64,000 bases of DNA, taken from NCBI GenBank assembly GCA_030374765.1, contig JARGXX010000129.1, forward strand, positions 1,167,956-1,231,955, in the 5' to 3' direction. Below the pieces are notes generated by a model, which made no database searches, was not told where the DNA came from, and saw nothing but the letters and a program-made list of their open reading frames with translations. A program made the translations under genes and the position numbers. This DNA is from Agarophyton chilense. Lineage: Eukaryota; Rhodophyta; Florideophyceae; Gracilariales; Gracilariaceae. Positions 2 through 64,000 of the stretch are shown piece after piece; within the stretch, counting starts at the first letter, position 1, and each line of letters begins with the position of its first letter.

Positions 2-3000
2 GTCACAGTTGTTACCAAGCAAATTGGTGTGCATGTGGTACAACCGAACCCGTCTCTGTATACGCGGCGTCAACTCGCCCTTGCGAATGGAATTGTCTCC
101 GTGGAACCGGATAAACCTTTCAAGGTTTTGGTAGCCAACTTTGGGAAGACAACGCAGCATTTGGTCAAACACCAGATCCTGGGTTCTGTTCTTCCACACC
201 CGCATGCAGTCGTACCTACAAAGATCTCTATCGCAGAGGTCCTTGGTGTGGCGGACCCTAAGGAGGGGGAGGACACTGCCGAAACCGCGAAAGACGGTGA
301 GCATACGACTGCAGCTCCACACGCTGAACACTTTAAACCTCAGGAGGTTACCGCCCCTATCACAGGAGCAGACCAGACGGATCCTGTTCAGGAATTGGAG
401 AAATGGGATCTCAACCATGTACCCGCATCTCATCGGGAGAAGCTGAGGCACATGCTTCGTGAATTCACCCCCATGTGGGATGGTTCCCTTGGAACTATTG
501 GGATTACAGAACACCGCATCGACTTGTTACCGAACACTCGGCATATTGCCCAACACCCTTACAGGGCTGGACCGAAAGCTCTGGAAGAGGAGAAATCTCA
601 GGTGGAGAAGATGCTTAAAGCGGGCGTAATTGAACCTGCCCAGTCCGCTTGGGCCTCACCCGTGGTGTTAGTTCCGAAACCGGATGGATCGTGGCGTTTC
701 TGCATCGATTACAGATGCCTGAACGAGGTAACCATTAAGAATGTGTACCCGATCCCTCGGATGGACGAATACATCGACTCCCTTGGGAGCGCTACTGTTT
801 TCTCTACCCTCGACGCCAATTCGGGCTACTGGCAAGTCCCTATTAGGGAGGAAGATCGAGACAAAACGGCGTTCGTGTGTCATCAAGGACTTTTCCGATT
901 CCGGAGGATGCCTTTTGGGTTGACAAATGCCCCCGCAACCTTTCAACGGGCAATAGACATTCTGTTGGCTCCCTTCAAGTGGAGGACGTGTCTAGTGTAT
1001 TTAGACGACATTATTGTCTTCTTCAAAAACCTGGATGACCACCTCGAACACGTCAGGGACGAAATGAAGATACTCCGCGACGCGGGAATCACCTTGAAAC
1101 TCAAGAAGTGCGAGTTTTTCACCGATTCGGTTAAGTATCTGGGTCATATCGTCCGTCCCGGACAGCTTTCAATCGATGAAGTGCGAGTGAAATCCTTGAA
1201 GGAAGCAAAACACCCGAAAACTCAAACGGAGTTGCGATCCTTCCTAGGTCTGTGTAACGTGTATCGCCGATTCGTCCCGAACTTTGCGGATATTGCCACC
1301 CCCCTCAACAGGCTCCTGACGAAGGGACAACCAGTTGAACTGGAACCTTTTGGCGACGCGGAAGCGTCTGCCTTCACGGCACTGGTGAATGCCGTAACAT
1401 CACCGCCAATCTTGGCTCTACCCAATCCTGGGCCCCCTTACGAAGTGGACACCGATGCTAGTGCAAACCAAGTAGGGTGTGCACTGTTCCAATCCTCTGA
1501 GGATGGCGAAGGTCACCCTATTGGGTACTGGTCTCGTTCCCTGAATGTCCATGAAAGGAACTACTCGGTCTGCTAGAAAGAATGTTTAGCCGTTGTGTGG
1601 GCCTTAGCTGCACTTCGCCCCTATCTGATGGGTACTCGTTTCAAAGTCCATACGGACCACGCATGCTTGCGTTGGCTCCTGGAGATCTCCGAACCCTCGG
1701 GCCGCCTTTTGCGCTGGCGTCTCCGACTGTCGGAATTCGACTTTGAGATCCTGTACAAGAAAGGGAAGCTGAACACTCAGGCTGATGCACTATCCCGCTT
1801 GGGAACCACAGCGGAAACGGAACCCTACGAGGACGATGACATCCCATGTTTTATGGTATCGGACCTCGAGGGAGGAGCTCAACCGCTGACGGATGATGTT
1901 TGTGACGATATACTCGTCAACGAGAGTCTGGATTCGCCGACCGGCTCTTTTATACCTATCTCTCCAGAGGAGATGATACGCGAGCAACAGCTCGACCCAT
2001 TCTGTACACGGATTCGGGCTCGCCTCAACGGAGGATTTCAGTTACCTTTCGAGGACGACGATCAGGGTTTCCTAATCAGGACCGTTGGACCTCGCCCGAG
2101 GATAGTGGTGCCGCACACCGTACAACAGAGGGTATTACACCTCACTCACTATGTGAAGGTTGGCGCCCACCCCGGGGGAAGAAAACTGTACCTCACGTTG
2201 AGAAGGGACTTTTACTGGCCGTAAATGGCATTCGATTGTTACGCCGTCATACGAGCCTGCGCCAATTGCGCCAAGAATGACGTCAAACTTCGGAAGCACT
2301 CTAAGAAGTTGACGCTGTTCCCGGCACGGGCTCCACTCGAATTCATGGCCATAGACATCCTAGGGGAGTTTATCAGGACGCCCCGAGGTCATCGGTATCT
2401 GCTTGTCATTTCTGACAGATTCTCTAAGCTAACGAGAACTGTGCCGCTGAAGCGGATCACCGCCGCTACCGTCGCGCAAGCGTTCGTGACCCATTGGGTG
2501 TTCGTATATGGACCGCCGGTGCAGTTTTTATCCGACAACGGAGGGCAATTCGCATTAAAGTTCTTTCAGGATGTATGTCAAATCCTTGATGTAAGGAATT
2601 TATTTGTTACTACGTATCACCCTCAGGGGAATGGCCAGGTGGAGAGGTTTAACCGCACGATACTCAACGCTTTGAGATCGTATGTTGCGGATCACCCCAA
2701 AAATTGGGACTTGTACACAGACGCTATCACGTATGCATACAACACCCAGGTACATCGGGTTACATCGTTATCCCCATTCGAACTGGTACTGTCGAGGACA
2801 CCGCCGCCGGTCGCCATCGAGGCTCAACCGACGCTGTCGACGTACTCATCACCGGGATTGTACCGAGAAGCCTGGAAGGAGTGGCTTACGAAGATGGTGC
2901 CGATAGCCCGGAAAGCAATGGACAAAGTTCAACGCGCCTACAAGAAGGACTTTGACAATCGGGTTCGCAAACCTCTACCTCAGGTGGAGCCCGACGACTT

Positions 3001-3820
3001 CGTTTTCCTTCGAAAGGAATACTACACTCCTGAAAAGGAACGTAGGCAAAAGCTTTCGCCAATTGTGAACGGACCCTATCGTGTGGTTTCTGTAGACCCG
3101 GACACAGTGGTATCGGATATCGCTAACCGCCACGAACGGATCTCCAGGGACCGCATCACACGAGCGCCCAACCCAAATGTGAAAGTGGTGTCGGCACCAA
3201 CGCCCTCCATAGGGGATGATTCAACGGAAGTTAACCCGTCAGGCGGAGATTCGAACACCCGCCCCGTTATACTTCCGCACCCGGAACGTGGTTTAACCGA
3301 CCTACCGGAAACTTCGGATACTCCCGAACCTGGGCCCGCTCCCTCAAGGGCCCAGTCAACGAACTCTTACAGAGTTACTCCCCCACCGGAGGTAATCAAG
3401 CCTCCTGGCTCTCCGCCTAAGGAGGGGGAGGAGGACTTAGTTCCTTCGCAGGACGATGTTTCGGCGTCAGCCAGTCGCCCTAACAGGGAATCTAGTTCTC
3501 ACAGTGAGACAGCGAGCCCGACCGAGCCGGCGACAGAGAAGTCACAACCCCAGCGTATGGGTAGCGACATTACCGCCGACCCAGCCGAGCACGACGTCAG
3601 AAAAGATAACGAAACCCCGCCTAGGGAGAGTCCTGTGGAGAACTCCGCACCCGGAACGCCTACAGAGCCGACGATCACCCGCCGCCGCGGACGAGACACT
3701 GAGGTGTCGCACACTCAAACCCCGCTTTATCGGGAACGAGCTGTGTCAGCGGACCCACACGGGGAAGATCTCGACGACGAGGTTGACCAAATTGGGCTCT
3801 CCGTTATGGAATGGGAATAG
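2..3820 (+). pseudogene. gypsy-1 pol: reverse transcriptase, RNase H, integrase
   Basis: One frame (codons starting at 2, 5, 8 ...) stays open from the window edge to 3820 except for two nonsense codons: TAG at 1574-1576 inside RNase H and TAA at 2222-2224 inside the integrase zinc-binding domain. RT has LDANSGYWQVP near 811 and the catalytic YLDD at 998-1009. RNase H has DTDAS near 1449 and TDHACLRWLL after the first stop. Integrase has the HHCC finger (2130-2280) and a full DDE triad: Asp in AIDILGEF, Asp in SDNGGQF and, exactly 35 residues on, Glu in QVERFNR. A Pro/Glu/Ser-rich tail of about 200 residues follows the core. The upstream linker matches gypsy-2 pol at 53100-53300. There are no frameshifts, only point stops, so the copy looks young or was recently constrained. 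Confidence 0.92.
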
Positions 3821-28110: not shown

Positions 28111-31100
28111 AAACTTTGTCGTAGATTCGAAGAGCTAGCACAAGCTCAAAATAAAATGAATAAAGAAGAAGAAGAGAGACAAAACTATGGAGGCGTGAGA
28201 TGGAGACGAAGAAGAAGAGGTTCTGGAGAAAACAGAGGCGCGACAATCGCATGAGTGGAAGGACCCGAAAGAGTAACGGTTACTGTCGAAGATGCTCCAG
28301 ATGAAGTACAAGTAAACGAAACTGGTCAGCATGTGCAAGATCCAGTCGTCGTCGCGGATTTGAACGAAGATGAAATCATTACAGCTCCAATCATCAGTGG
28401 ATCACTTCCAAGTACCACGAGAACCACTGAAAACCATCCTCGGGCTACTGTCGAAGAAGAGATGCCTGCTCCAATGAAAGTTGAAGAAGATGAAATCACT
28501 CCAGCTCCCGCACCATCCGCTGAGTCAGAGCTTCAGCAGGTTCCTACTTTTGCTATTCATTCAGAAGAACAACAATCGCTCCAAGAGCTTGATTCGACCG
28601 TCATGCTGTTTGCCGGACGTCCAGATCGTGGATTGTATCGCGTTTACTACGCATGGGATTCCGATGCTGCTCAAGCATGGATTGATCCAGCCACTCGTGC
28701 AAAAATCCTGAGTTTGAGACGTTGTCCACCGTAGGAACCCGCAGATGCAGAAGATGCGGTGAGTTTTCACACACCTATGGTTCGTGTCCGTACGAAGACT
28801 GGACGTTACGAATTCATAGTTGCAAGTGCTGTGGGTGTGTTCTTTTAGGAAAAGAGGTACATGGAGTCTGTTGTGGCATGAAACGAAATTCAGGATGGGG
28901 GGTCACATTTCGTAGACGCCATACTAATACTAATGAAGAAATACGAAGCATATACCGTTCAAGAGCATTCCACTCGGACTCCTTAAACTTGAATACGCTT
29001 TTTGACACCACTCAAGCGCGTTTATGGACATGTCCTATGTCACAGGATGTGGCCCTTCGTTTCTCAGACTAGAAGGAACTGCATCACTCGCTCTCCCGGC
29101 ACACAGACAGAGCAGCACGCGGTATAGTTTTCTTTTGGGCGCAGGGCCTCCTTCTCTGGATCCTGGTCACTATACACGAGCAAACCTGCGAGCGTTTATC
29201 CAAGACATCAACGTGAAACACATGGTTCCGAGACTTTACGAGGTGATTCAGCCCAAACCTGATGTGGTGCGAGAGCGGTATCGAGCGATGCTGACAACGG
29301 AGCAAATGCAGGCACAAGAAGAAAATACGGTTGACGTAAGCTCGCAAGCTGCGAACGAGGGAGTGATAGTGCGCGGATATGAGGGCACCAGAACTGCAAC
29401 AGTGTCTGGTGACAACGTAGGTGCAGGTCCGAAGTCCGAAGATGCTCCTGGAGCTGGACCATCTATGATGAGAACCTTCGTAGTCGATCCAGGCGGTCTG
29501 TACCATGTCGAGGCCCAGGTGCCTCAGTTGACTGAGGGCACAGTTACGGAAGAACACGCAGCTATCACAGGCGACACGGAGCAAGCAGGGGCTGCAGTAA
29601 ACTCAAACAGCAACCCCCGAGTGCGGTATAAATTTCTGAAACCGTCTTCTATGCTAGCAGAGAGAGGTACATTTCCCCTTCTGTACCCGTATGGCGACAA
29701 GCATAAACCGTTTGACCTGCATTTGTATCTGCAAGCACGAAATGGTACGCAAGAAAGCTTAGGGCTCGGTTTCGATCAGTGGAATCTTCAGAAGCTTACT
29801 TGGGCACAAAATGCAAAGCGTCGACTGTATTCAGATAACTTTTTGCTTAATAGTGGTCCATTAATGCAAATGTGGTTGCTTCGCACACAAACAAACATTT
29901 TGAAGACATGCGACTTCAATACCTAGAACGGCAGCAGCAAGCACGCCTAGTTCAAGAGACGGAAATCGTTCAAGCGCAAAATCAATCGACTGGCGGAATG
30001 ACTGACGCGCAATTCAGGCTTATGGGACGCATTTTGCTTCCTGATGACTCAGTGAACTCTTCTAAGTACTGGAAAAGTAAACGAGAGGATGTACAAGCGA
30101 TTGTGGCAAGAAAAGGACCCCCTTCGCTATTCATCACCGTCACAATGAACGTATGGCGAGCGGATGTGAAGCGTATAGGCATGGATACGACTCATCGGAG
30201 TGCTATCACAGCACCAGCTAATCGTCCACGCCCGTTTGACCGCCCGGACTTGATTGCCAGAGTTTACAACCAGTACATCAACGATATTGTGAAAGACCTC
30301 GAAAAGAATTCAGAACAGTTATTTGGGTCCTAGTGCTTGGGACTTGCAGCAAAGCTGGAGTTTCAAGAACGAAACGTAGCGCACCATCACATCCTGCTAT
30401 GGTTAGAAGGAGGTGTACTAGAAGACGTAGATGCCATTGACAGTCTGATTCGAGCCGAAGTACCAAGTCCAGGGGAAAATGACGAACTGCGCGCCCTCGT
30501 TTTATCTATGCGCCGCCACCGCCACTCTTCATATTGTCGTAATCTTGCAGGTCGTTGCCGATTTGGGTACGATAGCACAATGATTGTACAAGAAACATAC
30601 ATCGAAGAAGGAACAAACCGTGTTGTTTACCGAAGAAGAAATGAAGAAGATCTCAAAATCGTGCCATACAATCCTACACTCACTAAGAAGTACCGCTCAC
30701 ACATCAATGTAGAGCGCACGCAGGGTGGAGGAGCGGTAGCGTACCTCATGAAGTATGCTTTTAAGCAGCCCAAAGCACAAGAAGTTGCTCTGAATGTTAG
30801 CAACCAGAATGAATCGGGTACAGATACCCAACAACCAGCTGTGGTGCAGAATGAAATCCGTTCCTACATGCGGGCACGTGTGGTGGGTGACGTGAATGCT
30901 GCTTGGCGAATCTTTGGGTTTCGTCACGTCTCCATTCTGCCCACTGTGGAGCGACTTGCAATATATTTGGAGGGAGAGAGAACTTTTGTTCTTCGCAGCC
31001 CTAATGACATTCACACGGCTTCACAGCCATCAACACTGGAACGGTACTTTCAGAGACCTGAGACATATGCCAGTCTTGATTACCTCTCCTACTATGAAAA

Positions 31101-33274
31101 GGTGCGCCTGTATCGAACCCTCCCAACTAGTGTACTCAATCAGTTTGATGGAGACAGTACTCAAGTGCCGAGAGACGATTGTGATCCGTCGATGTATGTC
31201 GTGGAGAGGTCAGAAGAGAATCAGTGCGTCGCCAGAATTCGAGCCGTCGTTCCTGCCGAAATAGAGCTTTTTCACTGCGTTTATTACTTATGAATCGCGC
31301 CTCAAGTTCTTACGAAGATGCGAGGACCATTGACGGACAGCAGCTTTCCACATTTCGGGAAGCAGCGATCGCAAGCGGGCTGCTCCGTGACGGTACCGAG
31401 TTTGCCATTGCGTTTGAAGAGGCAGTTCAAATATACAGCACTTCATCTGAACTGCGGCGGTTGGTAGTTACGCCGTATCAGCAAGGCGCAGATGCAGAGA
31501 AAATGGTTGTTGATCACTGGGAGGCGCTGTGCAGCGATATTCACGCCGGGGATGAACAACAGCGAAAGCTGGAAATGTATCGACGAATTATTAGCATATC
31601 TGACAACCATGGAGGTCGTTTGCTCCGTGAGCATAGCTTCTTTGTTCAATATATCCAGCAAAATGAGGAACAAACTGAGACTGATCGTGCAGTAGTCACT
31701 CGCCAATTAAGAGTGGTGCGAAATGCAAGCACACTGCAATCCAGGTATAATACATTGAAACCAACACAAAAACACGTTCTGGATACGATTGTGAATGCTT
31801 TAGAACTCCGACAGCAATCCGATCAAGATCGTCTGACCACTCCTGGAAACGTTTTCTTTATACAAGGATCTGCAGGCACTGGAAAGACGTATATGTTGAA
31901 TTTGTTGCGGGATATATGTGAATCAAAAGGAATGCTAGTTGAATTGAATTGACAGCTACAACGGGAATCGCTGCATCCCTTTACGAGGGAGGTCGCACAT
32001 TGCACATTCTGCTTGGTTTGGGTGTGGGAGATAAAGACAGTACTACTACACAACTTTCACTGTTGTCCAAGTACGGTCCTCGGTCTCAACGAGCGGAACT
32101 TTTGCGCCATCTACAGCTACTCGTACTTGACGAGGTTTCGATGCTCTCCAGAAGGTTGTTTGAGCTCATGGACGTGCTACTCAAAGACTTGCGAAGTTCT
32201 CAAACACAAACGCAACCGCCATGTTTCGGTGGACTGTCTATAGTGTTCGCCGGCGACTACTCACAGCTGCTTCATGTTGTGCCTCAGTCGTACATGGAGC
32301 CTGAGGCGGGTGCGAACTTTCGAAGAGTGTATACAAACATTTTGAACGAGCTGCCATGGAAAAGCAATCTCTGGACAGATTCCTCTGTGCAAGTTCTTTA
32401 TCTCACAGAACAAGTTCGCCAAGAAGATGATCCGGGGTTTGCGGCTTTTTTGCGTGCCGTTGCGCGCAACACCATCTCGAGTACTATACCACCTCCACTG
32501 CAGTCTACTGGAGTGATGCAAACCGCATATACGTTTGTGTATAAGTGGGTCACGACGCGGCGCAAAGAAGATGTAGATCTCAGCAAAATGATAATTGCAT
32601 CCACAAATCATTTGGTGGATGAACACAATACTGCTGCCCTGAATCTTTTTCCGGGTGAGCAAATCACTTTGCAATCCGCAACTACAGTACAGCCACTTCG
32701 AGCGCAGACTGCCGAGTCGGATATTTCGGACACTATTGTGCCTGAGTTTGCCTATGAATATGCTCCTACTGGTATCCCTCCACACAACCTGTGCCTCAAA
32801 ATTGGTGTTCCTGTGATGGTTATTCGAAACGTTCTGCATCCAGTGTTGGTAAATGGAAAAATGTTTGTCGTAGTTCGTGTGGATCAGTTTACGATGCATG
32901 TGGCAAGGTTCAACGAAAACGGTCAAGTAATCGAGTCACAAGTGCTGCATCGCATTGATTTTGAGTTTTCCTTTGCAGAAATTCCTATGATTCGAAGACA
33001 GTTCCCCATTCGACTTGCATTTGCAGCAACAGTTCACAAAGGACAGGGCAAAACTCTGAACGGTTTAGTTGTTGATGTGCGATCAAATTTCTTCTGTGCA
33101 GGTCAGCTGTATGTGGCGCTGTCACGAGTGCGAAGGAACGAGCATTTGTTGTTACTGCACGACTCTAGCCTTACGCCTGACAATCCACAGACGATACATC
33201 CGAAGCCAGTTCCACTAATCAATCCAGTGCTTCCTGAGGCTATAGAGTTTTGCAATCCTCACCCCACTACGTAG
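28111..33274 (+). pseudogene. Helitron Rep/helicase, decayed
   Basis: The remains of one Rep-helicase protein lie in consecutive frames. An acidic N-terminus (28111-28734) is followed by a Cys-rich part (CRRCGEFSHTYG, CCGCVLLGKEVHGVCCG; 28722-29072) and the Helitron-like N domain (29024-29926). The Rep HUH nuclease is at 29872-31293, with VAHHHILLWL and the tyrosine motif AVAYLMKYAF. A Pif1-family helicase is at 31224-33274, with Walker A GSAGTGKT, Walker B LVLDEVSML and the C-terminal HKGQGKTLN ... GQLYVALSRV. Breaks seen: TGA near 28252, TAG at 30331-30333, a one-base loss in a T run near 31270 and a 5-base tandem duplication (TTGAA) at 31939-31952. Rolling-circle transposition needs both activities in one protein, so this copy is dead. 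Confidence 0.9.
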
Positions 33275-38596: not shown

Positions 38597-38604
38597 TATA
38601 AATA
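38597..38604 (+). promoter_or_regulatory. TATA box of the alpha-amylase gene
   Basis: TATAAATA, 77 bases before the ATG at 38674. Confidence 0.65.
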
Positions 38605-38673
38605 GGGCATCATTGTCGGTCTGAATGTTTCAATGCCTCTATCATCGCATGTTTTTCCTCATCACAACACGCG

Positions 38674-40383
38674 ATGGCTCTTCCCAACTCCCTAGTCTTC
38701 ATCACTTTGGCTTTTGCGTCGTTATTGTACGGTGCCCTGTCAAACACGCGAACGGCTTTTGTCCATCTCTTTGAATGGAGCTGGAACGACATTGCCAATG
38801 AATGTGAGCAACATTTGGCACCCAAACGATTCTCAGCAGTGCAGGTGTCGCCCCCCCAAAAATCCGTCGATAGGCCAGAATGGTGGTCTCGATATCAACC
38901 TCTCAGTTACGCAGTGGAAGGAAGAAGCGGCACACGTGATCAATTTATCTCCATGGTTCAGCGTTGTGCTAAAGTAGGTGTTGATATTTACGTAGACGCA
39001 ATAATTAATCATATGGCCGCATTGGATCGAAAATTTCCACAAGTACCGTACGGCCCGAATGATTTCCATAGTTGTGTCACTCCAATCAAGTACAATAATC
39101 GTTTTCAGGTGCAAAATTGTGACTTGGTTGGCTTAAATGACTTAAAGACAGAATCGGAATATGTTCGATCCACCATTGCACAATACTTGAATGATCTCAT
39201 TGGCATGGGCGTGAAGGGGTTTCGAATCGATGCTGCCAAGCACATGCCGGCTGCTGATGTTGCAGCCATAGTCGCAAAGTTACAGAAACCAGTGTACATT
39301 TTCCAAGAAGTAATTGGGGCTGGAGGAGAAGCTGTGCAGCCAACGGAGTATACTGGTCATGGTTCTGTTACTGAATTCAACTTTGAACGCACATTGGGCT
39401 TCTATTTCAAGGGAAGAGGGCCTCTTAAAGAACTTCAAAATATTGTCAACTTTAAAGGATGGCTCAGCAGTGATGAAGCTGTTGTATTTGTTTCGAATCA
39501 CGACGATCAGCGTCAAAATACGTACAATACTCTCACTTATAAGGATGTTGGAGATTTGTACTACATCGGAGAGATTTTTAGTTTGTCTTATCCGTATGGC
39601 TATCCCAAGGTCATGTCCAGCTATTTTTTTGAGGATCATGATCAGGGTCCGCCCTCGAAGGGGGTACATTCGGGCGCGCGATGTGGAAAAGAATGGGTAT
39701 GTGAGCACCGATGGAGAGGAATCGCAAACATGGTTGAATTTCGGCGCGTCTGCTCCACTCAGTTCCAAGTCACAAACTGGTGGGACAATGGCAATAATCA
39801 AATCGCATTTGGACGAGGTGGTCTGGGTTTTGTCGTTATCAATCGTGAGGACAATCTTTCTATGGATCAAATATTCGATACTGGAATGAAATCAGGTAAC
39901 TATTGTGACATTGTGAACGGTGAATTTGAGAGTGGTGTTTGTAGTGGTAATGTGATCGTTGTAGGAGGGGATGGGAAGGCTCGGTTTCAAGTTGATACTA
40001 TTGGTGCAGCTGCAATACATGGGGGAACCAGGATTGGAGATATATCCCTTGAAATGGGCAACCTGAGGGTTAAGGATCAGAGCAGTAACGTGGTGCAAGT
40101 AACATTTTCTTGCCGAACTGGAAATGATCGACCCGGACAAAGCGTGTTCGTGATTGGTAGTGAGGATGAACTTGGTCAGTGGGACGTTTCGAAGGCTGTA
40201 AAACTCCTTCGAGGGGAGAATGCTGTATGGACCAGAGATATCACGATAAAGTACGGCAAAACGGTTGAGTGGAAGTGCTTGAAGCGGGATGATTCAAACG
40301 TAAGAGAAGCAGTTCAGTGGGAGAGGGGAGAAAACAACATTTTTGTTTCACTTTCAGAGCAAAAGGTTGTCGGCCAGATATAA
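38674..40383 (+). CDS. Secreted animal-type alpha-amylase with starch-binding domain
   Basis: 569 residues. Hydrolyses internal alpha-1,4 bonds of starch or glycogen. Signal peptide 1-23. GH13 barrel with VHLFEWSW (30-37), the VQVSPP region (57-61), DAIINH (108-113), nucleophile Asp186 in GFRIDAAKH, acid/base Glu212 in IFQEVIG and Asp277 in FVSNHDDQR. Arg184 matches the chloride-ligand arginine of animal amylases. Domain C follows to ~470. A CBM20 starch-binding domain (474-569: VFVIGSEDELGQWDVSKAVKL ... RDITI) is fused at the end, which animal enzymes lack but some bacterial animal-type amylases have. Role: extracellular or vacuolar starch breakdown. Complete and uninterrupted; ATG 38674 gives the signal peptide directly. 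Confidence 0.95.
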   Translation: MALPNSLVFITLAFASLLYGALSNTRTAFVHLFEWSWNDIANECEQHLAPKRFSAVQVSPPQKSVDRPEWWSRYQPLSYAVEGRSGTRDQFISMVQRCAKVGVDIYVDAIINHMAALDRKFPQVPYGPNDFHSCVTPIKYNNRFQVQNCDLVGLNDLKTESEYVRSTIAQYLNDLIGMGVKGFRIDAAKHMPAADVAAIVAKLQKPVYIFQEVIGAGGEAVQPTEYTGHGSVTEFNFERTLGFYFKGRGPLKELQNIVNFKGWLSSDEAVVFVSNHDDQRQNTYNTLTYKDVGDLYYIGEIFSLSYPYGYPKVMSSYFFEDHDQGPPSKGVHSGARCGKEWVCEHRWRGIANMVEFRRVCSTQFQVTNWWDNGNNQIAFGRGGLGFVVINREDNLSMDQIFDTGMKSGNYCDIVNGEFESGVCSGNVIVVGGDGKARFQVDTIGAAAIHGGTRIGDISLEMGNLRVKDQSSNVVQVTFSCRTGNDRPGQSVFVIGSEDELGQWDVSKAVKLLRGENAVWTRDITIKYGKTVEWKCLKRDDSNVREAVQWERGENNIFVSLSEQKVVGQI

Positions 40384-57060: not shown

Positions 57061-59514
57061 TTTTGTCTGTGTTTTCGGAAAGCTAGTATTGGGTTCTAGA
57101 TATCTAATTTGGGTGTGCTAGAATGTCTATGGTTAGCATTCATAGATTCGCAGATTGTTGATGCCAGAATATCTAGCGCAAAAATACTAGCCCAAGTGAA
57201 TTTTGGGGAGAATGTAGAAAACTAGCAATCATCCGTACTAACACCGGCACACTAGGAAGAATGGAAGAGAACTTTGAAGATATCTTTCGATACTCATTAA
57301 TCCTAGACCATGAACTCTACGGACAATGAAAGGAATACTGAACGCTATCTAGCGCATGATGGTTCATTTCGCGCAGGTATCGTAGCTAGTATGAGCCGTT
57401 CAAATGCCCTGCACATTCAATTTAATGTCCTCTAATGACCCTAATGGCCAGTGCATAATACGGCGATCCTGCAACTGAGACCCGAAACGGGTCCCCGTTG
57501 CACGTGAAATGAGATCTTCCCAATTCGCATGCGGTGACCCGCTTTGCATTACGGCCCCCCGTGTGTTGCGCTTCACCTCGCGTCGCGCTTCGCGCCACGC
57601 GAAGAACCCTCCATTCTCCGAGAACCGTCCAAGCAGTACACCAGTTCACCCTTCATCAATCCCAAATTCCTACCTAAGTAGATAGACATCACAAAATCAC
57701 TCAAGTTAGAGCCCAATTCCTCGCTTCATGCAAGCACATTCCATATAAACAAACTTACCTCTGTCAAAAATGTGCTCCTTGTCTTGCCTGAATACATTGG
57801 TGTTTTGGCATGCTGAAAAATCAATGAATTTTTTGATGTCTGTGTCTGAGTTGAAAACAGGGCCGGCCAGACAAAAAATTGTAAAAATTATGCTGTGGCG
57901 CAGGTCAAGCAGCCAGACATGTATTTTGATTAAATCTACCGAATAGCAGGCCTCAGTACACCGCAAATGCAAGTCTGATCGAGACTAGAAAAACGCGATA
58001 GAAGGTGCCAAAAATGGAGGTTGTCCGAGACAAAACGGGTGTGTATGAACTTGTGACAGTTGCCATACCAAACTCATCTCTGGGCACTGGACTACACGTT
58101 GCACGGGCCTGTAACGCGGCTAAACACGTAGAAAGACGTGTGAGGGAGGATCTTAGAGAAATCCAAAGTGTACAGTTGAACATGGTGGCCGCTAGATGAT
58201 CTGATCTAATTTTCGAAAAGCTTCGGATTTGGGTGTGTTTGGGAGGGGTTTTACAATCTGAGAAAAGGTCTTTGCCGTGTGTGCGGTAGACGGCAGATGA
58301 CTAGCTCGTGATTCACCGAACTGTGGACACGCACAAGTAGGGCTGAGGAGAGTGTGTTGGATGTGAATGATGTGTAAGAGTGCTGAAGAGGGACCGAGTT
58401 GGACACGAAAACCGTGTGATGATTGGCGTTTTAGCATGCCGGAAAATGTTTGAATGACTTGCAGTCCATTGAGAAAAGAGGTGGGTTTAGGGGAAGATGC
58501 ACCATTACGGGGGTTTATATTTGCAGTAAGGAAAACAATCTTCAATATAATGGTGTTTTAGTAAGCTGAAAAGGCATTGAATTCTAAACCCCTATATATA
58601 TTACAGGTTGTAAGTGTGGGCTGGCGCTTGGTAAAACGCAGTTGTCAGTAGCGCTTGGTAATTACATACACCAAGCGCCACGCGCTGCATTCGACGTATG
58701 TGCGATTTTGACCCCCTGGATGGAAAACGTTGTGCTGGAGAGCGCGTATGACACATTGGCACGCTCAAAAAATCGTGGCTAATTGCGCTCAGGCGCTTCG
58801 TTCGGGTAACGTAGCGCGCGACTTGCCAGATGTTGGGGCGCAGCACCCATTTTCGCAATTTTCGCTTTTGAAAAAATCATAAATTTTACGCGCGCTGGGC
58901 TTCTGCCAAATCCTGCGTTTGCACATGCTTTATTGTAACATTTTTGCTACACAACGTGGAGGCGTGCGTCGAGTGTGGCACTCAAAGGCGCTTGGTTTCA
59001 GCCACATCTCCGCTGCACAGTCGAGCTGTGTTGTAAGCTGGATAATGTGCGAAAATTTTATCAAAAGAAAGGGTTAGGGTATGCGTTTGCGCTTGGTTCT
59101 GTGGCGATTTCGTGGAGGCAGTTGCCACATTGTCAGGCGTTTTGTATGTGCGTTTTTGGGGTCGTGGACGCGGCTAAAAAAGGTGCGTTTGCGCTTGGTT
59201 CTAGGATGGTTTTCATATCCGGCAACACTGGGGGCCGATATTCGTTGGTATTGTCAAGTTCAATGTAGGTTGAGTGTGGTGAGTAGTAGGTCAGGCGAGT
59301 GCTGGCGCCACACTCTCAGCTAAAGAAGACGCGTGCAGTGCGTTTAGTGAGGTAGGGATGACGTATGCTTAACGATGCCAGGTAGGGTCTTATGACGTTA
59401 AGGTTTGTCCAACAGTGCCATCGCCACAAAGTAGCTATTGGTCAGGGCCTACGGGAGTTTACGTTTTCGTACAGGAAACCATTGTGTACGGGCTTTTACA
59501 GGTTTCAGGGGTTT
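57061..59514. other. Subtelomeric spacer, no supported gene
   Basis: It may begin with the 5' LTR of the copia-like element (minus sense), but no LTR pair was proved. GC-rich palindromic CGCGTCGCGCTTCGCGCC is near 57583. The string TTTGCGCTTGGTTCT recurs near 59088 and 59188, with shorter GCGCTTGGT copies from 58624. Small frames such as 58005-58199 are unsupported. Confidence 0.45.
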
Positions 59515-59760
59515 AGGAGTTTAGGGGTTTTAGGGGAAGCTTTACCTTTATGGGATTTTGAATTTACGGAGAGGAAAACATTGTGTAGGGGTTTTAGGGG
59601 TTTTACAGGTTCAGGGGTTCAGGGGTTCAGGGGGTTTAGGGGAAACTTTACCTTTATGGGATTTTTTATTTACGGAGAGGAAAACATTGTTTAGGGGCTG
59701 GTGGGCTTTAGGGGTTTTAGGGGAAGCTTTGCGTTTATTGGATTTTAGGGGTTTTAGGCG
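59515..59760. repeat. Degenerate interstitial telomeric repeats with a duplicated unit
   Basis: Runs of GGGGTTTAGG and GGGGTTTTAGG with point changes (TTCAGGGG, TTTACAGG) alternate with a unit starting GGGGAAGCTTTACCTTTATG. That unit appears at 59533, 59639 and, shortened, 59720. The first two copies are 106 bases apart and include ACGGAGAGGAAAACATTGT. Confidence 0.8.
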
Positions 59761-60179: not shown

Positions 60180-61076
60180 TTAAATGAGTGTTGTGGTTGA
60201 CTTCCACCAAGCTGCAAGGCGTAGAATGTTGGGAACGGCAAAGTGGTTGTTGTGTGTTAACCAATCATGAAACATGGCGTCTATTTCAAGGTGGAGGGGT
60301 GAGGAATCTTGGGAGGATTGGGAAATGGAGTTGAACTTGGATTGCATGCGGCCGTCAAAGAGGTGGAGTGCAATTTCGGAGCGAGTTTTGGAGCATGTTC
60401 GCCACAAGACCCATGCCAGTTGATAGAGCGAAATGAAGATGCAGTGTCTTGTTCCAAAAGTGTGCGGTTGAGAATGAGTTTTGAGTCCCTTGCAGAATCC
60501 GAGATGGCAACGGTAGCAGGTTCCTTGAGGAGATTTATCGAACCTGCAGTTGCGCGATATATGGTGCGGCGAAAAGCATCTGAAGCATCGTTGACGGGAA
60601 TGGGGGCATGCATGAGTGTCCGTCAAGTGCACTTGCGTTTTTTCGTGCAGCAAGCATGGCACACAGAGAGGGGCAAGTCGGCGGGAGAGCTCCTCGAAGT
60701 GTGACACGATTTGTTGCGGTGTTTTTCGTTCCAAGGTGTAAAAGAAGGTGGCAGAGTGGGACTGAGATTGAGAAGGAGCGACAGTGGGCGATTGGGTCGC
60801 AGCGGATGGATGCGTGGTTGTCAGCAGCGGCGATGGAGTGGAGGTGGGGGGTCGTGGTGGACGACTGGCGTGGGGTTTGGGGCTTTGTGTTGGGCCGCCG
60901 TTGGTGTTGGTGTTTTGATTGTTGAAGGATGTTCTGTTTGATTGATTGGGACCGTTTTTTGGCGGCGTGGGCGTTTGTGGGGAAGCGCTGGGTGACGGTG
61001 AAATGGATTGGGCGTGCTGAGAGGCAGAAGGGGTAGCGGAAACGGAGCTTCGTTCAGGGGTGGGAGAGGGGGTTAA
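60180..61076 (-). CDS. Zinc-knuckle protein, C-terminal part, 5' end replaced by telomere
   Basis: A minus-strand frame of 298 codons ends at 60180 and is open all the way to the telomeric repeats at ~61077 with no ATG anywhere. The first ~130 residues are Ser/Thr/Pro/Asn-rich. Then FEELSRRLAPLCVPCL and a perfect CX2CX4HX4C knuckle, CFRCFSPHHISRNC, followed by CYRCHLGFC, a likely second Cys site. The last ~80 residues look helical and end WLTHNNHFAVPNILRLAAWW. Zinc-knuckle tails occur in telomere-linked helicases of other eukaryotes; I cannot show that this is one because no helicase motif is left. The missing start suggests a gene cut by chromosome breakage and healed by telomere addition, or a gene whose start lies outside. 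Confidence 0.6.
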   Translation of the reverse strand, partial: LTPSPTPERSSVSATPSASQHAQSISPSPSASPQTPTPPKNGPNQSNRTSFNNQNTNTNGGPTQSPKPHASRPPRPPTSTPSPLLTTTHPSAATQSPTVAPSQSQSHSATFFYTLERKTPQQIVSHFEELSRRLAPLCVPCLLHEKTQVHLTDTHACPHSRQRCFRCFSPHHISRNCRFDKSPQGTCYRCHLGFCKGLKTHSQPHTFGTRHCIFISLYQLAWVLWRTCSKTRSEIALHLFDGRMQSKFNSISQSSQDSSPLHLEIDAMFHDWLTHNNHFAVPNILRLAAWWKSTTTLI

Positions 61077-61385
61077 GGGGTTTAGGGGTTTAGGGGTTTA
61101 GGGGTTTTAGGGGTTTTAGGGGTTTAGGGGTTTTAGGGGTTTAGGGGTTTAGGGGTTTAGGGGTTTAGGGGTTTAGGGGTTTAGGGGTTTTAGGGGTTTT
61201 AGGGGTTTAGGGGTTTTAGGGGTTTAGGGGTTTTAGGGGTTTAGGGGTTTTAGGGGTTTAGGGGTTTAGGGGTTTAGGGGTTTTAGGGGTTTTAGGGGTT
61301 TAGGGGTTTAGGGGTTTAGGGGTTTAGGGGTTTAGGGGTTTAGGGGTTTTAGGGGTTTAGGGGTTTTAGGGGTTTTAGGGCTTTA
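61077..61385 (+). repeat. Telomeric repeat array, inner block
   Basis: Uninterrupted mix of TTTAGGGG and TTTTAGGGG. It starts abruptly next to the zinc-knuckle frame and continues into the first 349-base unit. Confidence 0.95.
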
Positions 61386-61549
61386 GGGGTTTAGGTGTTA
61401 AGAAATGCGGTGGGAATGTGCGGCGTCGCTGTGCTCTGGAGGAACTTAATTTGCTAATTAGGGGTGGCCAAACCTTAATTGCAAGTGTTACCTCGTCATT
61501 AAGCTAATTACATGATATTAGGGGCGCTACTCCTAATTGTAATTGTCCT

Positions 61550-61620
61550 GCAAACAATGGGAATTGAACCCACGACTTGTGGAAAATATTAACAAATATT
61601 AACCACTGAGCTAAACGTAC
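61550..61620 (-). pseudogene. tRNA-like sequence, unit 1
   Basis: The minus strand reads TAGCTCAGTGG (A box, 61603-61613) and, 44 bases on, GGTTCAATTCC (B box, 61559-61569), the spacing of a tRNA gene. The T-stem GTGGG/CCCAT is intact. The centre contains TTGTTAAT, as in the anticodon loop of tRNA-Asn(GUU). The D stem and acceptor stem do not pair, so it is not a working tRNA. It could still be transcribed by RNA polymerase III. Confidence 0.7.
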
Positions 61621-61898
61621 TCATATTGGCTTGACTTATGGACTTGCGACGTTTCCATTTAAGGTACTAATCGACTTGCAACTGTTCCCCTTAAGGGTAC
61701 TTGGTTGGCGACGGCATTTTTCTATTCCGCGAACGGGGTTTAGGTGTTAAGAAATGCGGTGGGAATGTGCGGCGTCGCTGTGCTCTGGAGGAACTTAATT
61801 TGCTAATTAGGGGTGGCCAAACCTTAATTGCAAGTGTTACCTCGTCATTAAGCTAATTACATGATATTAGGGGCGCTACTCCTAATTGTAATTGTCCT

Positions 61899-61969
61899 GC
61901 AAACAATGGGAATTGAACCCACGACTTGTGGAAAATATTAACAAATATTAACCACTGAGCTAAACGTAC
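61899..61969 (-). pseudogene. tRNA-like sequence, unit 2
   Basis: Same sequence as in unit 1, 349 bases further. Confidence 0.7.
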
Positions 61970-62247
61970 TCATATTGGCTTGACTTATGGACTTGCGACG
62001 TTTCCATTTAAGGTACTAATCGACTTGCAACTGTTCCCCTTAAGGGTACTTGGTTGGCGACGGCATTTTTCTATTCCGCGAACGGGGTTTAGGTGTTAAG
62101 AAATGCGGTGGGAATGTGCGGCGTCGCTGTGCTCTGGAGGAACTTAATTTGCTAATTAGGGGTGGCCAAACCTTAATTGCAAGTGTTACCTCGTCATTAA
62201 GCTAATTACATGATATTAGGGGCGCTACTCCTAATTGTAATTGTCCT

Positions 62248-62318
62248 GCAAACAATGGGAATTGAACCCACGACTTGTGGAAAATATTAACAAATATTAA
62301 CCACTGAGCTAAACGTAC
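62248..62318 (-). pseudogene. tRNA-like sequence, unit 3
   Basis: Same sequence as in unit 1, 698 bases further. Confidence 0.7.
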
Positions 62319-62596
62319 TCATATTGGCTTGACTTATGGACTTGCGACGTTTCCATTTAAGGTACTAATCGACTTGCAACTGTTCCCCTTAAGGGTACTT
62401 GGTTGGCGACGGCATTTTTCTATTCCGCGAACGGGGTTTAGGTGTTAAGAAATGCGGTGGGAATGTGCGGCGTCGCTGTGCTCTGGAGGAACTTAATTTG
62501 CTAATTAGGGGTGGCCAAACCTTAATTGCAAGTGTTACCTCGTCATTAAGCTAATTACATGATATTAGGGGCGCTACTCCTAATTGTAATTGTCCT

Positions 62597-62667
62597 GCAA
62601 ACAATGGGAATTGAACCCACGACTTGTGGAAAATATTAACAAATATTAACCACTGAGCTAAACGTAC
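62597..62667 (-). pseudogene. tRNA-like sequence, unit 4
   Basis: Same sequence as in unit 1, 1047 bases further. Confidence 0.7.
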
Positions 62668-62781
62668 TCATATTGGCTTGACTTATGGACTTGCGACGTT
62701 TCCATTTAAGGTACTAATCGACTTGCAACTGTTCCCCTTAAGGGTACTTGGTTGGCGACGGCATTTTTCTATTCCGCGAAC

Positions 62782-64000
62782 GGGGTTTTAGGGGTTTAGG
62801 GGTTTAGGGCGTTTAGGGGTTTAGGGGTTTTAGGGGTTTAGGGGTTTAGGGGTTTAGGGGTTTAGGGGTTTAGGGGTTTTAGGGGTTTAGGGGTTTTAGG
62901 GGTTTAGGGGTTTAGGGGTTTTAGGGGTTTAGGGGTTTAGGGGTTTAAGGGGTTTAGGGGGTTTTAGGGGGGTTTAGGGGGTTTTAGGGGTTTAGGGGTT
63001 TAAGGGGGTTTTAGGGGTTTAGGGGTTTAGGGGTTTTAGGGGTTTAAGGGGTTTTAGGGTTTAGGGGTTTAGGGGTTTAGGGCGGGGTTTTAGGGGTTTA
63101 GGGGTTTAGGGGTTTAGGGGTTTAGGGGTTTTAGGGCTTTAGGGGTTTAGGGGTTTAGGGGTTTAGGGGTTTTAGGGGTTTAGGGGTTTAGGGGTTTAGG
63201 GGTTTTAGGGGTTTTAGGGGTTTAGGGGTTTTAGGGGTTTTAGGGGTTTAGGGGTTTAGGGGTTTAGGGGTTTTAGGGGTTTAGGGGTTTAGGGGTTTAG
63301 GGGTTTTAGGGGTTTAGGGGTTTAGGGGTTTTAGGGGTTTAGGGGTTTAGGGGTTTAGGGGGTTTAGGGGTTTTAGGGGTTTAGGGGTTTAGGGGTTTAA
63401 GGGGGTTTAGGGGTTTAGGGGTTTAGGGTTTAGGGGTTTAGGGGTTTTAGGGGTTTAGGGGTTTAGGGGTTTTAGGGGTTTTAGGGGTTTAGGGGTTTAG
63501 GGGTTTAGGGCTTAGGGGTTTAGGGGTTTAGGGTTTAGGGGTTTTAGGGGTTTTAGGGGTTTAGGGGTTTAGGGGTTTTAGGGGTTTTAGGGGTTTAGGG
63601 CGTTTAGGGGTTTAGGGGTTTAGGGGGTTTAGGGGTTTTAGGGGTTTAGGGGTTTAGGGGTTTAGGGGTTTAGGGGTTTTAGGGGTTTAGGGGTTTAGGG
63701 GTTTAGGGCGTTTTAGGGGTTTAGGGGTTTTAGGGGTTTTAGGGGTTTTAGGGGTTTAGGGGTTTTAGGGGTTTAGGGGTTTAGGGGTTTTAGGGGTTTA
63801 GGGGTTTAGGGCTAGGGGTTTAAGGGCGTTTAGGGGTTTAGGGGTTTAGGGGTTTAGGGGTTTAGGGGTTTAGGGGTTTAGGGGTTTTAGGGGTTTTAGG
63901 GGTTTAGGGGTTTTAGGGGTTTAGGGGTTTTAGGGGTTTAGGGGTTTTAGGGGGTTTAGGGGTTTTAGGGGTTTAGGGCTTAGAGGGGTTTAGGGGTTTA
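62782..64000 (+). repeat. Telomeric repeat array, outer block
   Basis: More than 1.2 kb of TTTAGGGG and TTTTAGGGG in irregular order, with rarer variants: GGGCGTTT, GGGCTTTAGG, five-G runs and TTTAAGGGG. It continues to the window edge. The orientation puts the chromosome end to the right. Confidence 0.98.

Follow-up and report, generated by a model that had tools for sequence, protein, structure and literature searches.

The window, the whole 64,000-nt stretch of Agarophyton chilense DNA that was analyzed, has its right edge at the end of contig C128 (position 1231955; contigs are written as C and a number). It contains an integrase-core frame (Pfam rve, 2225–3820), a PIF1-like helicase frame next to other long frames in a locus that we read as Helitron-like (29006–33274), and an alpha-amylase frame with a C-terminal CBM20 domain (38602–40383; best solved structure 1aqh). 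A 305-codon stop-to-stop frame on the minus strand (60180–61097) extends into the telomere. This frame has the Cys/His motifs CFRCFSPHH and CYRCHLGFC and no Pfam match, and its DNA also occurs on C129 (by eye).

Four head-to-tail 349-bp units lie close to the contig end, bracketed by telomeric blocks (Table 1). There are no mismatches between the units, self-identity at an offset of 349 is continuous over 61386–62439, and TRF gives the array a score of 2806. Each unit opens with GGGGTTTAGGTGTT and closes with TTCCGCGAAC. The telomeric blocks mix TTTAGGGG and TTTTAGGGG repeats, and the G-rich strand of the proximal block points to the contig end. An earlier note on this DNA had described four identical 349-base direct repeats, each with a telomeric start, embedded between telomeric blocks, and all of this holds: the 10-nt seed GGGGTTTAGG opens all four. 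The first of the two telomere repeats is a variant discussed for A. thaliana in the available part of PMC10100673. A literature search for TTTTAGGGG together with telomere returned only an unrelated match. Two additional TTAGGGG motifs occur on the G-rich strand at unit positions 73 and 133 (window unit 61386–61734); none of 5,000 shuffles had two, for a motif picked after reading the sequence. The four units in the window are a short instance of a much larger phenomenon.

Table 1. Features at the outer end of the window, with the evidence for each
Feature	Position	Strand	Basis
Proximal telomeric block, mixed TTTAGGGG/TTTTAGGGG	61069..61385	+	TRF 61069–61399, period 8/17; letters
349-bp unit 1	61386..61734	+	Same letters as units 2–4; identical copies at other contig ends
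10-nt telomeric seed GGGGTTTAGG of unit 1	61386..61395	+	Recurs at 61735, 62084, 62433
tRNA-like stretch (putative relic), alike in each unit	61549..61622	-	ARAGORN, Rfam below cut-off; boxes and stems by eye
Imperfect 32/33-bp duplication within unit	61634..61701		TRF 2.1 copies, 77% matches
349-bp unit 2	61735..62083	+	Identical to other three units
349-bp unit 3	62084..62432	+	Identical to other three units
349-bp unit 4, complete; outer junction is the unit end	62433..62781	+	Identity; junction letters
Distal telomeric block up to contig end	62782..64000	+	TRF 62783–64000; contig end 1231955

Copies of the unit across the assembly

The assembly searched comprises 79.8 Mb in 135 contigs. 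It has 353 exact unit–unit boundaries (185 forward, 168 reverse) compared with none for a reversed control pattern, which excludes chance. The first 100 boundary places listed are all on C1, C2, C12, C31, C64, and C71. A hand count among the matches listed gave at least 102 units that cover at least 348 of the 349 bases, 84 of the 102 being exact, over nine contigs. In a 9.9-kb stretch of C75, 27 exact units were found, every spacing being 349.

Tandem, near-identical units with telomeric sequence occur at several chromosome ends. The search of other ends that the earlier note had proposed found the same unit in arrays reaching or within telomere at ten contig ends (C1, C2, C12, C71, C75, C92, C93, C99, C128, and C129), with further arrays on C64 (a 23-kb contig; 41 boundaries listed) and C87 (a 60-kb contig). 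Sizes estimated from coordinates are ~65 units for the inner C75 array, ~55 for C92, ~52 for C99, and ~37 for C87; these arrays and that of C64 were sampled, and unit numbers there are mostly coordinate estimates. Copy numbers come from one assembly, in which C2, C71, C92, and C99 end inside arrays.

C31, C96, and C121 have unit fragments at a distance of 13–37 kb from a contig end, and further fragments are on C32, a 57-kb contig. No boundary falls on C6, C9, C21, C22, C28, C37, C67, or C68 in the contig-ordered list up to C71. The ends of these eight contigs are telomeric in the pieces read, which for C9, C21, and C67 omit the last 44, 301, and 50 bases, respectively. As candidates for dispersed copies or for an internal donor, the matches listed hold two degenerate relics deep inside contigs, on C22 (~88% identity) and C6 (~80%), and no others. 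The ordinary dispersed satellite that the earlier note had named as a refuting case is thus not seen among these matches.

It is very improbable that the arrays are an assembly artefact, in which a single short array was propagated to many contig ends or the copy number was inflated. Such an origin would fit the four contigs that end within arrays, the indel noise in the letters near some contig ends, and C129, which is probably a duplicate of the C128 end. However, most ends read differ in their flanks, their telomere patterns, their number of copies, and the position of the outer cut. A hand tally also placed ~147 of the 185 forward boundaries, and the shortfall pointed to C87, where an array was then found; the small pieces of C95, C97, and C105 contain no units.

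Junctions, polarity, and layered ends

The plus strand of the unit is the G-rich telomere strand in every array read. Of 16 starts judged independent, 13 are at the seed (within 12 nt of unit position 1), compared with one of ten outer ends (Fisher p = 0.0008). The 16 starts are those of C1, C2 (shared with C64), C12, C31, C32 (which may be artefactual), inner C71, outer C71, inner C75, outer C75, C87, C92, C93, C99 (the array and a 38-nt stub), C121, and C128 (shared with C129). Inner junctions are therefore mostly at the telomeric part of the unit, and the three elsewhere are at unit positions 90 (outer C75), 123 (outer C71), and 294 (C87). The C93 array starts at about unit position 12, and the inner C75 start has a single telomere repeat ahead of the seed. 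The ten outer ends are at 38, 54, 146, 183, 200, 201, 222, 223, 302, and 349. The end at 302 is that of C1 and outer C75; on C71 (183) and C64 (223) the unit run breaks and a further short unit piece precedes the telomere; at 146 (C32) letters of the unit and of telomere are intermingled. The count of starts omits C96, which has no telomere there, and the count of outer ends omits C31, C96, and C121, which run into other repeats. On C32, a unit copy with telomere-like stretches (~500–650 of the piece read) may be a base-calling or polishing artefact.

Telomere variant patterns at 11 starts, compared by eye, all differ except for those of C128 and C129. On the inner side of the telomere, the flanks of some ends show partial relatedness (e.g., C128–C71, C128–C93, and C12–C31). 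Telomere is present on both array sides at C1, C12, C64, C71, C75, C87, C93, and C128, an arrangement that departs from a tandem repeat proximal to the telomere only, as in an ordinary subtelomeric satellite.

Two ends, C71 and C75, have two long arrays with telomere between them. Read outward, the inner layer of C75 consists of the single telomere repeat, its units, a cut at 201, and ~1.4 kb of telomere; the outer layer starts at unit position 90 and has 12 full units, a cut at 302, and then telomere. On C71, ~0.5 kb of telomere separates the inner array from a second one, which is cut off by the contig end. Some junctions are common to two ends. C1 and outer C75 agree in having 12 full units, in being cut at 302, and in an odd TATAGGG directly beyond the cut; their letters differ past that point, with noise at the C75 end. 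C2 and C64 both have the odd start GGGGTTTTGGTG. These common junctions suggest end-to-end copying. C12 is cut at 200 and inner C75 at 201, and the telomere letters after these cuts differ.

Two arrangements are less simple. C64, read apart from positions 401–3000, has non-telomeric sequence beyond its outer telomere. This sequence resembles the one directly internal to the C1 telomere, and the C64 array is therefore not simply terminal. On C96, units are joined to non-telomeric sequence.

A second repeat of 931 bp (window 58590–59520) begins where a truncated 349-bp unit stops, at C96 and C121. Many of its copies are near contig ends, and some are tandem (C28, C97, and C4).

The arrays could belong to an ordinary subtelomeric satellite (Y'-like or Sultan-like) that expanded by unequal crossing over and was kept uniform through exchange among ends, with interposed telomere as relics of terminal breaks and with neither a circle nor overhang priming. 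We regard this as a real alternative, although on the whole an unlikely one. It would account for end-associated, head-to-tail arrays of high identity, for junctions common to several ends, and for the C64 arrangement, and homologous exchange would likewise favour the telomeric seed. The 931-bp repeat, nearly complete at no fewer than 42 places, 97–100% identical, and partly tandem, also speaks for it. What it explains less well is the position of arrays outside a telomere block at ends that have partly different inner flanks and different start-side telomere patterns, and the clustering of inner but not outer junctions at the seed; two-layer ends would in addition require repeated fresh starts.

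Five arrays have a first unit with an internal deletion. The inner and outer edges of these deletions are at unit positions 26 and 182 on C2, 33 and 226 on inner C71, 42 and 238 on inner C75, 32 and 121 on C92, and 32 and 58 on C99. In 200,000 trials with five random points, all five lay within 17 nt of each other 7 times; this width was chosen post hoc. The C2 deletion may be a later event, since C64 has the same start and a complete first unit. Because five first units are cut 26–42 nt after the unit start, telomerase copying beyond its own template (seed plus stub) was considered and provisionally rejected; it would place unit positions 1–42 in a telomerase-RNA gene, and no candidate gene was found. 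A pattern of seed plus flank not preceded by C has 11 matches (7 forward, 4 reverse), of which ten are known starts after telomere and one is a C31 boundary with T for C; a gene whose template follows a C, or whose sequence departs from these 17 bases, would escape this pattern.

The tRNA-like stretch of the unit

The units had been described as tRNA-bearing, each with a pol III promoter. By eye, the stretch has a T-arm as well as an A-box-like TAGCTCAGTGG and, at a spacing of 32 nt, a B-box-like GGTTCAATTCC; we presume the boxes to be such from the general form of these motifs. No D or anticodon stem was seen by eye in 61549–61622. ARAGORN with default settings identifies no tRNA genes in the window, and Rfam at the gathering score identifies nothing. 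In a permissive search, the Rfam tRNA model scores 15.9 bits (E = 2.7), the cut-off being 29, and ARAGORN with a lowered threshold yields a doubtful Ile-type tRNA overlapping the stretch and an equally doubtful Thr-type on the other strand. The tRNA-bearing description is thus not borne out: neither an ARAGORN cloverleaf nor a score above the Rfam cut-off was obtained, and by these tests the stretch would be a relic and not a working gene. On the transcript strand, the sequence that separates the two boxes includes a TTTT run, and such a run tends to stop pol III. Of the promoter proposal, the box-like motifs stand, a valid tRNA does not, and the TTTT run weighs against it, so that a promoter is weakly indicated. 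Structure on the minus strand of the unit is likewise weak (z = -2.28; 3 of 100 shuffles are as stable).

The stretch was compared with 52 different tRNAs from the assembly, of which 18 are plastid, 18 mitochondrial, and 16 from an incomplete nuclear set. C39 (227,691 bp) has many tRNAs and frames that match TPP-enzyme, amino-acid kinase, MlaE permease, AAA plus M41 peptidase, and magnesium-chelatase families, and loci on C132 and C133 match NADH dehydrogenase and TatC. Judged from content and size, C39 would be the plastid genome and C132 and C133 the mitochondrial genome of a red alga. The mitochondrial-type contigs have a repeated tRNA-Ser/tRNA-Arg block, and the tRNA set of C133 recurs at 27.2 kb, a period that suggests a circular genome assembled more than once. 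The best score is with mitochondrial tRNA-Phe (20.5), followed by mitochondrial Ser (17.0) and His (14.5); the best plastid score is 12.0 and the best of the 16 nuclear scores is 8.5. The highest score among 200 shuffled queries, measured against an earlier set of 38 tRNAs, was 12.0. The C22 relic is closest to mitochondrial tRNA-Ser (16.5), and the C6 relic scores only 11.0 with tRNA-Phe compared with 8.5 for nuclear Thr. No mitochondrial contig carries the unit among the matches listed. From these scores, the tRNA-like part may be of mitochondrial origin.

A telomere-primed, SINE-like retroposon would give a role to the boxes: a pol III RNA driven by them and ending in CCUAAACCCC would anneal to the overhang and be reverse-transcribed, leaving inner ends locked to the seed and truncated outer ends. 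The tRNA-like strand runs inward, the inner end of the unit is telomere-complementary, and the starts and scattered outer ends agree with such a process. It is nevertheless a quite unlikely origin, given that many units are complete, including ~113 bp upstream of the boxes, that the TTTT run would tend to end transcription between them, and that the matches listed include no dispersed family. Nor do the ten outer ends lie at or inside one transcription start, as in a tRNA-derived SINE or a telomere-primed retroposon; they are scattered, with no concentration at the 5' end expected for the RNA (around unit position 237), although 222 and 223 are fairly close to it.

Proposed recombinational copying, telomerase, and related systems

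A TERT frame of 1158 aa without stops is present on C73. The 1051 aa examined match Telomerase_RBD (E = 1.8e-29) and RVT_1 over the cut-off and TERT_C under it. Roll-and-spread arrays arise where telomerase is absent or telomeres are uncapped, and the telomerase that this frame would encode may or may not be active. The telomerase-independent maintenance invoked by the earlier note is not supported, given this uninterrupted frame and the arrays themselves, beyond which telomere begins again.

The reading that we favour, with moderate confidence, is a telomere-embedded satellite propagated by recombination, in which seed-primed template copying, end-to-end spread, and telomere recapping are combined ("roll-and-spread"). 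The 3' G-rich overhang of a chromosome (..GGGGTTTAGG) would pair with the 10-nt seed of a 349-bp template and be extended across it. Repeated rounds on a circular template, or copying of an array at another end, would produce tandem units in one orientation, and array-bearing ends could then serve as templates for other ends through break-induced replication. If copying of an end halted or the end broke, telomere would be put onto the truncated last unit by telomerase or by recombination, and another array could then stack outside the recapped end. The inner junctions at the seed, scattered outer junctions, constant polarity, near-identity of the units, and layering fit seed-primed copying, spreading, and recapping in a genome with a telomerase gene. 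From these we infer that the overhang primes the copying, that the template is circular, that spreading proceeds by break-induced replication, and that telomerase is the healing activity.

Several observations run counter to this reading. Three starts are not at the seed, and inner C75 has its lone repeat before the seed; the five first-unit deletions that begin at unit positions 26–42 are not predicted by the model; and the seed is itself telomeric, so that any homologous exchange also favours it. The non-terminal C64 array and the non-telomeric joins on C96 are further points, and we hold the reading slightly less firmly because of the C64 arrangement and because the matches listed are a lower bound. 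The rolling-circle copying onto chromosome ends proposed in the earlier note is in agreement with the seed, end location, near-identity, mostly seed-locked starts, and scattered outer ends; its circle would be a presumed intermediate and its telomerase independence finds no support. Its mechanism is plausible, for a feature far larger than four units and alongside a telomerase gene.

The comparisons with other systems draw on the available parts of the cited papers. In Kluyveromyces lactis, roll-and-spread is described for telomerase-deletion survivors and stn1-M1 mutants, where an introduced telomere-bearing circle gives tandem arrays at chromosome ends and one source sequence is found at many telomeres (PMC3486848). 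These are laboratory mutants, some of them transformed with circles (PMC3486848), whereas in A. chilense a TERT gene is present, the unit family includes degenerate relics, and most arrays read are followed by telomere. The TALT1 and TALT2 elements of C. elegans and mouse mTALT are likewise non-telomeric blocks with telomere-like borders, copied in one orientation to several ends (PMC4595603, PMC7889907, PMC9066243). Wild C. elegans strains have five (CB4856) or six (DL226) tandem copies of telomeric repeat plus TALT1 (PMC4595603, PMC9066243), and mTALT follows short telomeric repeats in telomerase-proficient mouse strains (PMC7889907). TALT1 is 1,464 bp, mTALT is ~7.4 kb, and few copies are described in wild strains (PMC4595603, PMC7889907, PMC9066243). 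The A. chilense unit shares the telomere-like bounds, single orientation, and duplication to ends, with a seed in every complete unit. It differs in being 349 bp long, with one 10-nt seed per unit, hundreds of copies, and layered arrays at many ends, and telomerase loss is not known in A. chilense.

Sultan arrays of Chlamydomonas reportedly (Chaux-Jukic et al. 2021) adjoin the telomere and are not interleaved with it as in A. chilense. A telomere-like role is said to have been suggested for the tRNA-gene arrays of Entamoeba. The former are similar as algal subtelomeric tandem arrays (mentioned in PMC10030371), and the latter as tandem units with tRNA-type sequence (PMC2652664). The Entamoeba units carry real tRNA genes (PMC2652664), whereas the A. 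chilense unit does not according to ARAGORN and Rfam, and A. chilense has ordinary telomere repeats. In the titles and abstract openings covered, 15 of 32 for red-algal telomeres and all of those matched for tRNA-derived telomeric satellites and for algal non-telomeric arrays, this feature is not described.

A more speculative view, which we consider doubtful, sees in the 349-bp unit a minimal selfish telomere element: persistent, probably circular, and non-coding, using telomere overhangs as primers and amplifying by roll-and-spread in a telomerase-bearing alga for long enough to leave relics that have diverged by 12–20%. If so, the tRNA-like promoter relic and the extra TTAGGGG motifs would aid the binding of pol III or telomere factors.

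According to the available parts of the papers cited, recombinational telomere growth from small templates has been reported in mutants of telomerase or of telomere capping, in ALT cells, and in a small number of wild nematode strains (PMC3486848, PMC4595603, PMC7889907, PMC9066243), and red algal telomere data in 2020 were mostly missing or fragmentary (PMC7046594). A genome with a telomerase gene and hundreds of near-identical, mostly seed-locked, layered units would offer a natural setting for reading priming, spreading, and recapping from sequence and for tracking them with cultures and long reads. The A. chilense arrays bear on the turnover of red algal telomeres.
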